A program made the position numbers and the translations under genes. This document shows, piece by piece, positions 14,863 through 25,960 of a stretch of DNA of 43,907 bases. The notes under the pieces were generated by a model. That model searched no databases. It was not told where the DNA came from and saw nothing but the letters and a program-made list of their open reading frames with translations. The stretch's first letter is position 1. Every line of letters starts with the position of its first letter. The stretch comes from a bacterium (lineage in GTDB: Bacteria > Patescibacteriota > Dojkabacteria > B142 > OLB20): NCBI GenBank assembly GCA_029567095.1, contig JAKQLP010000077.1, positions 1-43,907 of the forward strand. Direction: 5' to 3'.

Positions 14863-15918
14863 TTAAATAATTTCATCCCTAGAAACCTGTATCCTCTCTA
14901 AAAGGTTTATTTCTTCTAATAGTATCTCCGTTCCTCTAACCACCGCCTTAATTGGATCATCAGTGATGATTACAGGGGTTTTCAATCTATCCTCGAAGAA
15001 TTTATCTATTCCATAAATTAGAGCCCCTCCTCCAGCTAATACTATTCCTCTTTCTAATAGATCTGCCAAAATTTCAGGAGGAGTCTTTTCTAAAGCAGCC
15101 TTAATGGCGTCAGCGATCTTTTCTAATACTTTAGCCATTGCCTCCCGGACCTCTAAGCTTGATAGTTTAATTATCCTAGGAAGCCCGGTCAGCATATCCC
15201 TGCCTTTAACATCAAGTTCTTTTTCTGTCTTTAAAGGAATGGCTGAACCGATAGCAATCTTAACGTCCTCAGCCATCTTTGTTCCTATCAATAAATTATA
15301 TTTATACTTGATGTAATTCAAGATCTCTTCATCCAGCTCGTTCCCGGCTATTCTAATAGTATTATCAACCACAATTCCCCCTAAGGAAATTACGGCAATA
15401 TCTGTGGTTCCACCTCCGATATCTACGATCATGCTTCCGGCAGCATCATCAATCGGCAACCTCGAGCCTATCGCAGCAGCCATAGGCTCTTCAATAATGT
15501 AAACCTTCCTGGCACCTGCGGATACAGCCGCATCAATAACTGCTCTAGCTTCCACTTCGGTAATTGCAGAAGGGATGCCAATAACAACCCTAGGTTTAGT
15601 TAACTTAAACATTTTTGGATACATTTCATATACTTTATATATGAAGTACCTAATCATTGCCTCAGTCGAATCAAAATCTGATATTACTCCATCAGCAAGA
15701 GGCTTGACCGCAACAATGCTAGCAGGTGTTCTGCCTATCATTCTCTTAGCATCTACACCCACGGCTAATACTTTCTTAGTATTTTGATTCACTGCCACCA
15801 CTGAAGGCTCGTTAATTACAACACCATGACCTTTAACAGCGACCAGGGTCGTAGAGGTACCTAAATCTATTCCAATATCATGAGTAAAAACAGACAATAA
15901 TCTGTCAAAAATCGGCAT
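14863..15918 (-). CDS. mreB: Rod-shape actin homologue MreB (copy 1)
   Basis: An actin-like ATPase whose filaments guide lateral wall synthesis. Phosphate-binding DIGIDLGTSTT (14-24), IDIGGGTTDIAV and the GIVLAGGGALI segment are conserved. At 351 residues it is typical, with the N-terminal amphipathic MPIFDRLLSVF expected to bind membrane. It is the first gene of mreBCD-mrdA-dprA-topA. A second mreB lies at 22076-23074. The ATG has no SD. Confidence 0.95.
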   Translation of the reverse strand: MPIFDRLLSVFTHDIGIDLGTSTTLVAVKGHGVVINEPSVVAVNQNTKKVLAVGVDAKRMIGRTPASIVAVKPLADGVISDFDSTEAMIRYFIYKVYEMYPKMFKLTKPRVVIGIPSAITEVEARAVIDAAVSAGARKVYIIEEPMAAAIGSRLPIDDAAGSMIVDIGGGTTDIAVISLGGIVVDNTIRIAGNELDEEILNYIKYKYNLLIGTKMAEDVKIAIGSAIPLKTEKELDVKGRDMLTGLPRIIKLSSLEVREAMAKVLEKIADAIKAALEKTPPEILADLLERGIVLAGGGALIYGIDKFFEDRLKTPVIITDDPIKAVVRGTEILLEEINLLERIQVSRDEII

Positions 15919-19453: not shown

Positions 19454-19852
19454 ATGGCAGACGAAAAAAAAGTGGAATTATCAGCTGATGCAGCAAAAAT
19501 AGCAGAGATGCTTGAAAAAATGACTGCATTAGAAATATCCCAATTAGTCAAAGCATTAGAGGAAAAATTCGGTGTTTCAGCAAGTGCACCAGTTGCAGTA
19601 GCAGCAGCTCCTGCAGCAGCCACTGAAGCAGCAGAAGAAAAAACCTCTTTTGATGTAGAACTAACAGAAACCGGAGCAAATAAGATCGCAGTCATCAAAG
19701 TAGTCAAAAACGCTACTGGACTAGGTCTTAAAGAAGCTAAGGATCTAGTGGATGGAGCTCCTAAAATTGTCAAAGAGGAGATGAAAAAAGAAGATGCAGA
19801 AGCTCTAAAGAAAGAGCTTGAAGAAGCTGGAGCAAAGGTTACTTTGAAATAA
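19454..19852 (+). CDS. rplL: 50S ribosomal protein bL12 (L7/L12)
   Basis: A stalk protein that recruits translational GTPases. It has an N-terminal dimerisation helix, an Ala-rich hinge (about 47-63), and a C-terminal domain with [20 protein letters not shown] and the [22 protein letters not shown] pattern. Length 132. A strong terminator follows; rpoBC, the usual next genes, are absent. Confidence 0.97.
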
Positions 19853-19873
19853 GTAATTGCCTTAAAGCAAAAT

Positions 19874-19899
19874 AAAAACCCCCTTTAATGGGGGTTTTT
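19874..19899 (+). terminator. Intrinsic terminator after rplL
   Basis: AAAAACCCCC, loop TTTAAT, GGGGGTTTTT. It ends the rplJL unit 20 nt after the rplL stop. Confidence 0.9.
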
Positions 19900-19905
19900 C
19901 TTTAA

Positions 19906-19934
19906 TAGACTATTGGTTTTGCTTCCTATATAAT
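19906..19934 (+). promoter_or_regulatory. Promoter of the 7TM/ligase operon
   Basis: TAGACT (19906-19911), a 17 nt spacer, TATAAT (19929-19934). The predicted start near 19941 is 16 nt before the ATG. Confidence 0.55.
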
Positions 19935-19956
19935 ACTTGCAGTTAAACTAGATAAT

Positions 19957-20637
19957 ATGGGAGAAATATTCATTCAAAGTGGACTTGATAAAAATGTGGT
20001 AGTGATAATACTATTATTGCCTGTCGTTGCTACAATGATAGGAATTTCCAGACATATTTTCGGGCTTCGTTCCCTTGGCATATATCTTTCACTTGTGATT
20101 ACATTCATATTCTTTAAGTTGGGAGTACCTCAACATGAATCGGCCTACCTATCAGAACCAATTGAAGGTTTGAAATATGGAATTCCTCTAGTCCTACTTG
20201 TGTTCAGCTCCACCCTTCTTTGTTATCTGGCTGTAAAAAAATGGGCTCTACACTATTATCCCAAGCTTTCCATAGTCATAACTGGAGTAACAATGATTTT
20301 AATTCTAGCCATTATTCTCTTAGCATACTTTGATTTTAAGAACGTACTAAGAATTGAAACCTTTACTTTGATACTAATTGTTTCAATAACTGAAAAATAT
20401 TTTAGTATCTTATCAAGAAAGAACTTCAAGACCACCCTATTTATCTCAATCGAAAGCATAATTTTAGCAGCTATTTGTTATCTGATAATCAGCGCTCCTT
20501 TTTTTATAGATACTCTCCTGCTATATCCATATATAATACTCGCTTTACTCCCAGTGAATTACCTGGTTGGTAAATTTAGTGGTCTAAGATTTAGTGAGTA
20601 CCTTAGATTCTGGGATATACTTACGGAAAGAGATTAA
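19957..20637 (+). CDS. Seven-helix membrane protein of amidoligase cluster
   Basis: A 226-residue protein with seven evident hydrophobic helices (about 13-30, 39-56, 73-92, 103-124, 134-153, 160-180, 183-205) and a short polar tail. Together with the next gene it resembles the seven-helix domain that elsewhere is fused to an inactive transglutaminase and encoded beside an ATP-grasp ligase and a retropepsin-like protease. Here the soluble transglutaminase part is missing. The family assignment rests partly on context, since membrane helices are weakly diagnostic. It lies 15 nt upstream of the ligase gene. Its substrate is unknown. Confidence 0.65.
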   Translation: MGEIFIQSGLDKNVVVIILLLPVVATMIGISRHIFGLRSLGIYLSLVITFIFFKLGVPQHESAYLSEPIEGLKYGIPLVLLVFSSTLLCYLAVKKWALHYYPKLSIVITGVTMILILAIILLAYFDFKNVLRIETFTLILIVSITEKYFSILSRKNFKTTLFISIESIILAAICYLIISAPFFIDTLLLYPYIILALLPVNYLVGKFSGLRFSEYLRFWDILTERD

Positions 20638-20652
20638 TAAAACGTTCTAACA

Positions 20653-22074
20653 ATGCTCGAAAATCTTTTCAAAGTACTGAAAAATAAAAGAAAAGTTCTG
20701 GGGATGAACGAACGTAATCTCGAATATATTAGGAAGTATAATAAAAGAAAAGCCATTGAAATTGCTGACAATAAGATATTAACCAAGGAAGTCCTTACCA
20801 AAGCGCAAATTCCTACTCCAAAATTAATCAATGTGATTAAATCCTATCAAGAACTTGAAAAGTTTGATTTTAACTCTCTACCTAATTCATTTGTATTGAA
20901 ACCTGTATCCGGGTTAGAAGGTGGGGGTATAGATATATTTTACAATCAAGATAAATCTGGCAGGTGGATTAGAGCTGATAAATCCAAAGCCACCGTAAGT
21001 GATCTAAAGAAACAAATCACAGACATTCTTGATGGTAAATACTCTTTAAATCAAACACCAGACTTCGCTCTATTTGAGGAAAGGATTAAAACACATAAGG
21101 CATTCAAATATTTTACATATAAAGGGACTCCGGATATTCGCTTGATTTCATTTAACCAGATCCCAGTAATGGCATTTCTTAGACTTCCAACTAGGGAATC
21201 TAACGGTAAGGCCAATCTGGCATTAGGGGCAATAGCCACAGGTATTGATATTGCCAATGGTGTAACTACTTTTGCTATTCATGGTAAAGCCGGCTACATT
21301 GAATATATTCCAGGTACCAAACTCGAAGTTAGTGGCTTAAAAATTCCTTATTGGGATAGAATGCTGCGCTATGCAATAGAAGCCCAAAAAGCTTCTGGAT
21401 TAAACTATCTAGCTATTGATTTCCTTATTGATCGCGAACAAGGTCCTGTTATAGTTGAACTTAATGCTAGACCCGGTCTATCTATCCAATTAGCGAACAA
21501 AGATGGTCTTAGATGGCGCCTCAAAAAGACCCAAGACTTGAAAGTAACTTCAACTGAGAAAGGTATGAAGCTCGCAAAATACCTGTTCGGAGGCGAAATT
21601 GAGAATGAAATTGAATCTATTTCAGGTAAAGATGTAATTGGAATTTACGAAAATATTACTTTGTACAATGAGACAATGCAAGAGATCCAAACAAAAGCAA
21701 AGATCGATACTGGAGCGGACAGCACGTCTATAGATAAATCGTTCGGTGTAAAGCTCGGTTTTGGCGATATTATTAAAGCTTTTGAGAATGAAAACATTCC
21801 CGAAGATTTAAATAGAGACGAAGGGTTAAAATTGATGGAAAAGCTTCGTAATAAATTCCTTCCAATGTATCCTGAGAGATTAATAGATGTGCAATTCGTT
21901 AAATCAAGTCATGGTTCAAGCCTAAGGCCATACGTTAAGATCAAAGTCAAAATCAAGGATACAATATTCGAAACAAATGCGACAATCTTTGACCGCTCAA
22001 AGTTAGTATATCCTGTTATTGTGGGTAGAAAATCCTTAACGAAATTTCTTATTGACCCGAGTAAGTCAAAATAG
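20653..22074 (+). CDS. ATP-grasp glutamate-ligase-like protein fused to retropepsin-like domain
   Basis: The N-terminal about 310 residues match the RimK-related alpha-L-glutamate ligase-like family. They show VLGMNERN near the start (15-22), VLKPVSGLEGGGI (81-93, ATP-binding Lys K83), and the metal-binding end VELNARPGLSIQLANKDGLRWR (268-289). Residues about 325-473 form a separate domain with D352-TGA and a late DRSKLVYPVIVGRKSL (447-462), the hallmarks of the RimB/putative ATP-dependent zinc protease family with a retropepsin fold. A peptide-bond-forming and a presumed peptide-cleaving domain thus share one chain. It is partnered with the seven-helix protein. The start is the ATG preserving the VLGMN segment. 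Confidence 0.85.
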   Translation: MLENLFKVLKNKRKVLGMNERNLEYIRKYNKRKAIEIADNKILTKEVLTKAQIPTPKLINVIKSYQELEKFDFNSLPNSFVLKPVSGLEGGGIDIFYNQDKSGRWIRADKSKATVSDLKKQITDILDGKYSLNQTPDFALFEERIKTHKAFKYFTYKGTPDIRLISFNQIPVMAFLRLPTRESNGKANLALGAIATGIDIANGVTTFAIHGKAGYIEYIPGTKLEVSGLKIPYWDRMLRYAIEAQKASGLNYLAIDFLIDREQGPVIVELNARPGLSIQLANKDGLRWRLKKTQDLKVTSTEKGMKLAKYLFGGEIENEIESISGKDVIGIYENITLYNETMQEIQTKAKIDTGADSTSIDKSFGVKLGFGDIIKAFENENIPEDLNRDEGLKLMEKLRNKFLPMYPERLIDVQFVKSSHGSSLRPYVKIKVKIKDTIFETNATIFDRSKLVYPVIVGRKSLTKFLIDPSKSK

Positions 22075-22075
22075 C

Positions 22076-23074
22076 TTAGCCCCTAAGAATTCTCTGAATA
22101 TGTTCCAGATTATTGAGGGCATATATTATGCCTCTTATCACAGCTAATTCAGGCTCCTCAACTACATGTGCCGAAACTCCAGTTGCTTTAGTAAAGAGAT
22201 CATCGATATTTCTTAACATTGCAGTACCTCCTGTTAGCACCATTCCCCTATCTATTATATCCGAGGACAATTCAGGTGGAGTCCTCTCTAACACCTCTTT
22301 AATTGAAGCAATAATTTCACTTAGGACAGGTTTAAAGCCCTCAACAACATCATTGGTCTTCAATTCAATAGATGTCGGCATGCCTGTAGTTCCATCTCTT
22401 CCTCTTACCTCCATTGTCAATTCCTCCTGAACTGGTACAGCCGAGCCAATTTCGATCTTGATACGCTCGGCCATCTGCTCTCCAATTACTAAGCCTGTCT
22501 TTTTCCTAATGAAATTGATCATTGCCTCATTCAAAGCATCCCCTGCCAATCTTTTGGATTCGTAGGTTACTATACCATTCATAGACATTACGGCAATTTC
22601 AGAAGTTCCGCCTCCCATACTTATTATCATATTCCCTGCTGAACCTGAAATTGGCATATTTGCTCCAATTGCAGCTGCTATAGGTTCAGGAATCAGAAAC
22701 ACTTTCCCAGCTCCTGCCTGGACACATGCTTCGATCACAGCTCTTTCTTCTACTGAGGTAATACCTGCGGGCACACTGATCATGACCTCAGGTTTGAAAA
22801 ACCTCACTTTGCCCAGAACTTTTTGCATCAGGTGAGAAATGATCATTTCAGTAAGTTTATAACTAGCGATCACCCCCTGACGAATAGGTCTCCTAGCCTC
22901 AATATCAACAGGGACTTTCCCCAACATGCCTTTAGCCTGGTTTCCTATAGCCACAACTTTTTTATCTTTAGTGGAAATTGCTACAACTGTAGGTTCGGAT
23001 ATTATTTCTTTCTTACCTACTACAGCGATAATGGAATTTGAAGTTCCAAGGTCTAAACCAATTCTCGTAGCCAT
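22076..23074 (-). CDS. mreB: MreB-like actin homologue (copy 2)
   Basis: A second, diverged MreB/Mbl of 332 residues. The phosphate loops GLDLGTSNSIIAV (6-18) and ISMGGGTSEIAVM, and the GMVLTGGTAML motif, are conserved. The N-terminus is shorter than in copy 1 and lacks its amphipathic stretch, so membrane attachment may differ. It stands alone: its stop is 1 nt from the stop of the convergent ligase gene, with no terminator between, and it is divergent from the PEGA-domain gene. It could specialise in another envelope process. Confidence 0.92.
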   Translation of the reverse strand: MATRIGLDLGTSNSIIAVVGKKEIISEPTVVAISTKDKKVVAIGNQAKGMLGKVPVDIEARRPIRQGVIASYKLTEMIISHLMQKVLGKVRFFKPEVMISVPAGITSVEERAVIEACVQAGAGKVFLIPEPIAAAIGANMPISGSAGNMIISMGGGTSEIAVMSMNGIVTYESKRLAGDALNEAMINFIRKKTGLVIGEQMAERIKIEIGSAVPVQEELTMEVRGRDGTTGMPTSIELKTNDVVEGFKPVLSEIIASIKEVLERTPPELSSDIIDRGMVLTGGTAMLRNIDDLFTKATGVSAHVVEEPELAVIRGIIYALNNLEHIQRILRG

Positions 23075-24733: not shown

Positions 24734-25330
24734 TTATTTCAACTTGCCAGATACTCCACTAAAATCACCTGAGTAAACATTGTAATCAAACACTTCCCTA
24801 TTTTTAAACCACAAAGCAATCTCTTCCTTAGCTTCTGCTAATTCACCAGAAGCATGAATAATGTTGTAAATTGGTCTTTGTTGAGAATTAGCAAGCTCGG
24901 CACTATCGATGCCATAATCTCCCCGGATGCTTCCCACCACTGCATTAGCCGGTATGGTATCTCCTACCAACTTTCTACAAACATGTACTGCATTCGGCCC
25001 TTCCCAAACCATAGCTAATACTGGACCAGCACTCAAATAATCAATTAACCAGCCTTTAACTAATTGCCCGATCTTGATTGGATCCATTGTTCCTAATTCC
25101 TTTACTGGATCCAGATCTTTATCTAAATACTCTTTTAAGGTCCTTTCACCTACTTTTTGCAACCATTTTTTAGTATGGGGATAATGTGAATCCCCCATAT
25201 CTCTAGTTGATTTTAAAAATTCCATTGCCACCAACTTCAAACCAACTCTTTCAAACCTTTTGATAATCTCGCCCATCAACCCTCTGGCCACTCCATCATG
25301 TTTAATTACGATCAATGTCCTCTCTGTCAT
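24734..25330 (-). CDS. ndk: Nucleoside diphosphate kinase, paralogue 2
   Basis: NDK transfers the gamma phosphate of ATP to NDPs through a phosphohistidine. The ATP-site motif is VIKHDGVARGLMGEI (8-22, with His where Pro is usual); the catalytic H159 lies in NIIHASG. The residues corresponding to the usual nucleotide contacts R (R119) and N (N156) are kept, but the Asp after the active-site Ser is Gly (G162). At 198 residues it is about 50 longer than common NDKs because of an insertion (about 51-95). It is last in the leuS-to-ndk operon and lies 18 nt after its paralogue. Confidence 0.9.
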   Translation of the reverse strand: MTERTLIVIKHDGVARGLMGEIIKRFERVGLKLVAMEFLKSTRDMGDSHYPHTKKWLQKVGERTLKEYLDKDLDPVKELGTMDPIKIGQLVKGWLIDYLSAGPVLAMVWEGPNAVHVCRKLVGDTIPANAVVGSIRGDYGIDSAELANSQQRPIYNIIHASGELAEAKEEIALWFKNREVFDYNVYSGDFSGVSGKLK

Positions 25331-25348
25331 GATTAATAAAACTAATAA

Positions 25349-25960
25349 TTAATATGCTTCATAAATACCTGTATAATCGAGCCTATGGTAATCACTGAGA
25401 TCTTTAAAATCTTTGCCAAACCAATGCTCTATCTCCCTTTTAGCCTCTGAAGCTGCGTCTGATCTATGAACAAGTGTCTTGAAAACAATTCTTCCTGATC
25501 TAACAGCAAGCCTAGGAGTATCAAACCCGTAATCGCCTCGAACTGTTCCCACATCAGCTAACACTGGATCTGTCTTACCCATTAACTTAGCTACCACATC
25601 TACAGCATGATTTCCCTCCCAAACACTTATAACGACAGGTCCTTCTGTCAAATATTGAACCAGAGAGTCATAAATCATTTGACCAATTTTCAATTTGTCA
25701 GTTGTACCCAAATCCTTTAATAATGCCTTTTCATCATTATTATAGTTTTGATAAGTTTTATCCCCCATCTTCTCAAGCCATTCTTTTGTACCGGGATAGT
25801 TTTTTCTGGCTTGTTCTTTACTAGGCCATATCATCCTACAGGCGACCATTTTCAAGCCTATTCGTTCCAACCTATGGAATATTTCTCCAATTAAGCCCCT
25901 TCTCACACCATCAGGCTTTATCATTAGAAATGTTTGTTCAATACTATCAAAGTCATGCAT
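25349..25960 (-). CDS. ndk: Nucleoside diphosphate kinase, paralogue 1
   Basis: The tandem paralogue of the downstream ndk, 203 residues, with the same inserted segment (about 55-100). It has MIKPDGVRRGLIGEI (13-27) and catalytic H165 in LVHRSD. By eye, two nucleotide-contact positions differ from the consensus: A124 where Arg is usual and T162 where Asn is usual three residues before the His. It may be a modified or regulatory subunit, or prefer other nucleotides. It lies 17 nt after the thymidylate kinase-like gene. Confidence 0.9.
   Translation of the reverse strand: MHDFDSIEQTFLMIKPDGVRRGLIGEIFHRLERIGLKMVACRMIWPSKEQARKNYPGTKEWLEKMGDKTYQNYNNDEKALLKDLGTTDKLKIGQMIYDSLVQYLTEGPVVISVWEGNHAVDVVAKLMGKTDPVLADVGTVRGDYGFDTPRLAVRSGRIVFKTLVHRSDAASEAKREIEHWFGKDFKDLSDYHRLDYTGIYEAY

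Follow-up and report, generated by a model that had tools for sequence, protein, structure and literature searches.

The ORF1-ORF2 locus

The DNA analysed here (the window) is a 43,907 nucleotide stretch, contig JAKQLP010000077.1 of the Patescibacteria assembly GCA_029567095.1. Two genes on its forward strand, separated by 15 bp, are the subject of this report: ORF1 (19957-20637) encodes a bare seven-helix membrane protein of 226 aa, assigned to PF14402 by profile match and homologue alignment, and ORF2 (20653-22074) encodes a 473 aa protein in which, by profile matches, an ATP-grasp ligase is fused to a retropepsin-like peptidase. The gene upstream of the pair is rplL (19454-19957, Pfam-confirmed in the window), and an rplL-like gene, recognized there by sequence motif only, also precedes the pair in 13 related loci (L004, L007, L026, L027, L036, L037, L042, L044, L047, L048, L051, L052 and L053). 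Between rplL and ORF1 is a terminator-like hairpin (19874-19899) that can be read in both directions, and just upstream of ORF1 on the same strand is a promoter-like TAGACT-17-TATAAT (19906-19934, 10/12 positions); both are consensus matches only, and a pattern scan of the window gave 3 terminator-like sites against 1.8 expected in shuffles and promoter-like sites no commoner than in shuffles. The promoter-like site suggests that the pair is a separate transcription unit, and with the hairpin it weakens the idea, drawn from gene order, that the pair is co-transcribed with rplL. The downstream neighbour is a convergent mreB gene (22076-23074, - strand) that ends 2 bp from ORF2; it is the second mreB within these 43 kb, the other being at 14863-15918, also on the - strand. 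The window also contains tandem nucleoside diphosphate kinase genes (24734-25330 and 25349-25960, - strand, each ~200 aa), in both of which the family match is split into two pieces; a thymidylate kinase gene adjoins them. No glycosyltransferase or glycan gene adjoins the ORF1-ORF2 pair in the window gene list.

ORF1 matches PF14402 along its seven-helix part only (2.2e-12, 47.5 bits versus a 25-bit cut-off), a profile search of its 226 aa found no transglutaminase domain, and 49 of 50 aligned ORF1 homologues match PF14402 as well. Its seven hydrophobic segments have positive charges in loops 1, 3 and 5 and in the C-terminal tail, from which an N-out/C-in arrangement with a cytosolic tail is predicted; the tail motif LR..E..RF is among the best conserved parts of the protein. 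A PDB profile search with the seven-helix protein gave no match, and it has no match to PF14102 (PgsC/CapC). By eye a relationship to PgsC/CapC seemed possible, but the hhalign score does not stand out from those of 108 controls, made up of membrane proteins and reversed sequences, in a comparison whose power is low because a single CapC protein was used.

The two halves of ORF2

The ligase domain spans ORF2 residues 11-297 (20683-21543, + strand) and is of the RimK/RloC-like ATP-grasp kind by profile match and residue conservation. It matches TIGR02291 (7e-79) with 265 bits, under that model's cut-off of 314.2 bits, and PF14397 with 1.2e-64, the latter being named by Pfam "sugar-transfer associated ATP-grasp"; the RimK model TIGR00768 scores 60 bits and does not reach its cut-off of 143.4 bits. 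K83, D256 and E269 are invariant among 112 ligase homologues, and N271 is present in 111 of them.

The retropepsin-like domain occupies residues 319-473 (21607-22071, + strand). Residues 409-472 match PF05618 (3.5e-9) and the RloA3 model (5.9e-11, 42.3 bits), and the RimB-type model NF052261 fits less well (21.5 bits against 200). The C-terminal domains of 43 homologues, all 43 of which match PF05618, gave a profile that finds the RloA-type structures 9g59 (1e-11), 9g58 (4e-11) and 2pma (9e-9) as well as the yeast retropepsin Ddi1 (6e-4), and it aligns the ORF2 DTGA at D352 to the catalytic DTGA of the solved structures. Within this set D352, G354, A355, R425, R448 and G458 are invariant and K350 is nearly so, and a VIVGR motif begins at ORF2 residue 455. 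RimB shares K46, R114 and R137 of RloA, residues that have been modelled as polyglutamate contacts; when either arginine of RloA was changed to alanine (R114A, R137A), most of the activity was gone and complementation failed (PMC12239564). ORF2 has the same residues in the same places: K350 stands two residues ahead of catalytic D352 as K46 stands ahead of D48, and the 23-residue R425-R448 spacing equals that of R114-R137. Cysteines are a mark of the periplasmic retropepsin members (PMC12239564). ORF2 contains none and has no hydrophobic N-terminal segment, and because it also shares its chain with an ATP-dependent ligase, its trimming activity would most simply be cytosolic. The genome (95% complete) contains no PF05618 protein besides ORF2. 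Structure predictions from three-row alignments (pLDDT 43 for ORF2 and 48 for ORF1) were too poor for a fold search.

The preliminary description of this locus, made from the sequence by inspection, thus holds in its structural claims: an ATP-grasp ligase and a retropepsin-like domain do share one chain (TIGR02291/PF14397 and PF05618/RloA3), K83, N271, D352-TGA and VIVGR all lie where it had placed them, ORF1 is the bare seven-helix protein that it described, and its pairing of a bond-making with a bond-cutting activity is likewise supported.

Distribution among Patescibacteria

Matches to ORF2 are present in 136 of 380 Patescibacteria genomes, some of which have RimB- or RimK-like matches only, and PF14402 is present in 106 of 362; the pair is found in roughly a third of sampled Patescibacteria; a scan of genome contigs returned just two relatives. 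Gene order and domains were analysed at 111 loci with a full-length ligase. In 106 of these the ligase gene is immediately preceded by a PF14402 gene on its own strand, with a median gap of 4 bp; among the five exceptions, two are cut off upstream by the end of the contig and one has its seven-helix gene on a different contig of its genome. The pairing is obligate. The upstream seven-helix protein is bare in 35 cases, has a PKD-containing N-terminal part in 53 and has another N-terminal extension in 16. A retropepsin-derived domain follows the ligase in 109/111 loci. The preliminary description was incomplete here: the fusion is the normal state in Patescibacteria and not peculiar to the window genome, and the bare seven-helix protein is one of several forms.

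Several variants were seen in the same material. Two ligase-retropepsin chains (L039:3218-5779, 854 aa, and L058:2611-5373, reverse strand, 921 aa) end in ~400 residues that by eye resemble a second ATP-grasp domain. A different ATP-grasp protein of 459 aa is fused to a retropepsin-like domain with DSGA (L124:4011-5387, reverse strand), and this protein, which lies beside a separate RimK-like gene, may be a second, independent ligase-retropepsin fusion. At L129 (ORF from 1420, 356 aa, and the ORF upstream) a PgsB-like ligase precedes a PgsC/CapC protein in which the CapC domain occurs twice; the genome concerned (G006) also carries a ligase-retropepsin system.

Replacement of the retropepsin site by MATCAP

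Many relatives have a shortened retropepsin-like part followed in the same chain by MATCAP (PF08014; ~38 sampled fused copies), a metallocarboxypeptidase unrelated to the retropepsins, and in others MATCAP is a separate downstream gene. The metalloprotease motif HExxxH and the [QE]EG[LMI]A motif are intact in 37 of 38 fused copies, the one exception (L114) being a copy split by a frame break that leaves the motif outside the first part. In the alignment of C-terminal parts, the DTG is lost in 42 of 46 systems with MATCAP in the operon and kept in 66/66 others, which bears out the conservation that the preliminary description had expected at D352, as do the family matches above for its assignment of the C-terminal half to the retropepsins.

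A stricter test of an intact site, which requires D-T/S-G-A plus K or R at 350, 425 and 448 and searches the whole genome for MATCAP, could score 105 systems. The site is intact in all 43 systems of MATCAP-free genomes, and each of the 50 systems whose site has decayed comes from a genome with MATCAP; a further 12 systems combine an intact retropepsin site with a MATCAP somewhere in the genome. The 50 decayed systems comprise 33 with the site lost and 4 with DTG alone, all in MATCAP operons, and 13 that form one group of the window's own class, in which the DTG is kept, other residues are lost and MATCAP is elsewhere in the genome, mostly within about 10 kb of the ligase.

Counted by rows, the association of MATCAP with decay has a Fisher p of 8e-19, a value to be read with the relatedness of the rows in mind. 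On the ligase tree, decay requires about five to six changes and is found at least in a 35-row clade (support 97), a 5-row clade with NTG (support 99), L007 + L014, and a group in family f4. L007 and L014 are decayed beside the intact window and L004 systems within a four-row clade of support 100. A phylogenetic sign test gave 3.7 of 4 independent pairs in agreement and 0 in disagreement (p about 0.125); it is not significant because independent decay events are few, and its direction is consistent.

Since the active site is kept in every MATCAP-free genome (43/43), its catalysis appears to be under selection, and since it decays only where MATCAP is present, the comparison suggests that the function lost is hydrolysis and that glutamate chains are its likely substrate. 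The window genome (95% complete) contains no MATCAP, and as it also has no other PF05618 protein, the retropepsin-like half of ORF2, whose site is fully intact, would be the sole eraser if the two peptidases are indeed exchanged for each other.

In the family f4 relatives (L036:281-3914 on the reverse strand, L026 and L027) one to three more RimK-like ATP-grasp genes follow the pair, and in several of the genomes MATCAP is encoded close by on the other strand. This arrangement is possibly a larger peptide-ligase cluster that could be helpful in naming the substrate.

Comparison with known systems

The nearest described system is RloABC (the rlo operon) of Pseudomonas aeruginosa, which has a role in osmotic tolerance and cell shape (mBio 2025; PMC12239564). 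All three domains correspond, namely the PF14402 seven-helix part (RloB), the ATP-grasp ligase (RloC) and the DTGA retropepsin (RloA), and the retropepsin polyglutamate-binding residues are the same as in ORF2. However, RloABC is three genes, as the preliminary description had said of known clusters, and RloA, which has a signal peptide and a disulfide, is a secreted protein, whereas ORF2 is one cysteine-free chain with no signal peptide; RloB carries a periplasmic inactive transglutaminase (also correctly stated there), whereas ORF1 is bare and some relatives have the PKD-containing part instead. RimK-RimB (PMC11957791, PMC7343187) is likewise a cytosolic ATP-grasp ligase and a retropepsin opposed on glutamate chains, but these are separate genes without a seven-helix protein, and RimK belongs to a different ATP-grasp family from that of ORF2. 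In eukaryotes TTLL and TMCP1/TMCP2 (PMC10499314) are an ATP-grasp writer and a PF08014 eraser, the combination that is fused in the ~38 Patescibacteria relatives, but they are separate proteins that act on tubulin, and the window system itself is without MATCAP. Poly-gamma-glutamate synthase PgsB-PgsC also joins a ligase to a small membrane protein and makes a glutamate polymer, but PgsC has no detectable similarity to the seven-helix protein and PgsB is not known to be an ATP-grasp protein.

The Rlo/Rim kind is already known; in the literature searched, to which the amidoligase survey of Iyer et al. 2009, reportedly the first description of such gene neighbourhoods, does not belong, no account was found of the single-chain form, the bare seven-helix protein or the MATCAP exchange.

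Proposed function of the pair

What, then, does this ligase-peptidase chain do? We lean slightly towards a reduced relative of RloABC, namely a glutamate-chain ligase that is docked at the membrane and carries a replaceable deglutamylase within the same protein; ORF2 probably both builds and trims glutamate chains. Its ATP-grasp half would add glutamates one by one to a carboxyl-ended acceptor at the cytosolic membrane face, and the fused retropepsin half, dimeric as are RloA and RimB, would shorten the glutamate chain, so that chain length would be set inside one enzyme. The seven-helix protein would dock ORF2 through its conserved tail, predicted to be cytosolic, and would either present the acceptor or be the acceptor itself. 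As writer and eraser form a single soluble chain, we favour an acceptor in the cytosol, at or on the seven-helix protein.

The substrate, which the preliminary description had left as unknown, can be narrowed toward glutamate chains, since the polyglutamate-binding residues are conserved and the retropepsin is swapped for MATCAP in relatives. Both RloA and RimB hydrolyse polyglutamate about eight residues long (PMC12239564; PMC11957791), and TMCP1/TMCP2, MATCAP-family enzymes of human and Tetrahymena, shorten TTLL-made polyglutamate chains and leave the branch-point residue (PMC10499314). Polyglutamate hydrolysis is therefore what the RloA/RimB and MATCAP relatives share despite unrelated folds, from which we infer that the ligase builds glutamate chains. 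Pseudomonas is harmed by losing all its RloA proteases only when it has the ligase and the seven-helix protein (PMC12239564), which suggests that an eraser must be retained. Against this explanation stand the ligase score, under the TIGR02291 cut-off, the small number of independent decay events, which leaves the sign test short of significance, and the 12 systems that have both erasers. MATCAP enzymes also remove tyrosine, which is a further point against glutamate chains.

Export of a polymer, in which free poly-alpha-glutamate is made in the cytosol and moved to the envelope by the seven-helix protein after the protease has limited or recycled it, is unlikely in our judgement. It would account for the hypo-osmotic and cell-shape phenotype of the Pseudomonas mutant and for the fact that RloA is secreted there while the ligase is cytosolic, so that something must cross the membrane; but in ORF2 the protease is fused to the ligase on the very side where a polymer meant for export would be destroyed, and the seven-helix protein has no detectable similarity to PgsC/CapC (with the low power of a one-protein comparison). 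It is more doubtful still that the fused enzyme is the RimB-RimK equivalent and modifies a ribosomal protein, with the seven-helix protein merely its regulator. RimK and RimB do form a complex and are antagonistic on RpsF (PMC11957791), the pair follows rplL in the window and 13 loci, and the genome has no other PF05618 protein, but the RloC-type model scores 265 bits to RimK's 60, the seven-helix partner is nearly always there, and elsewhere in the Patescibacteria RimK and RimB are found as separate pairs (L117-L125). A search of the window genome with PF01250 for ribosomal protein S6 gave no match, either because the protein is divergent or because the assembly is incomplete.

The Pfam name of the ligase family and the suggestion of an envelope modification in the preliminary description both point to decoration of an envelope glycan, whereby the ligase would couple a sugar carboxylate with an amino acid or a short peptide, the peptidase would edit the product, and no polyglutamate would be involved. 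We give this little credence, as it has no glycosyltransferase or glycan gene beside the pair in the window to draw on, does not fit the conserved polyglutamate-binding residues of the protease, and leaves the choice of MATCAP, a C-terminal carboxypeptidase, as replacement unexplained. Finally, the retropepsin half might be mainly regulatory or dimerizing, with its catalysis dispensable, much as RimB increases the ATPase activity of RimK (PMC11957791); the domain does persist in chains where its active site is lost, but the perfect site in all 43 MATCAP-free systems makes this very improbable.

Implications

That a natural ligase-protease fusion is widespread in tiny genomes indicates that the two activities work in the same place and on the same thing, and the MATCAP swap hints at the module's function, MATCAP being akin to the enzymes that trim tubulin glutamate chains. 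More broadly, and only tentatively, we suggest that Patescibacteria use a single-chain, membrane-bound writer-eraser to control how long the glutamate chains on a membrane acceptor become, that its eraser half has been replaced several times by MATCAP, and that it is a bacterial counterpart of TTLL/TMCP. The pair offers a simple two-gene system for testing the product and substrate of the RloABC ligase and the role of the seven-helix protein, and it gives the tubulin deglutamylase family a bacterial context. If the proposal is true, glutamate chains would be recognized as what all Rlo-type systems act on.
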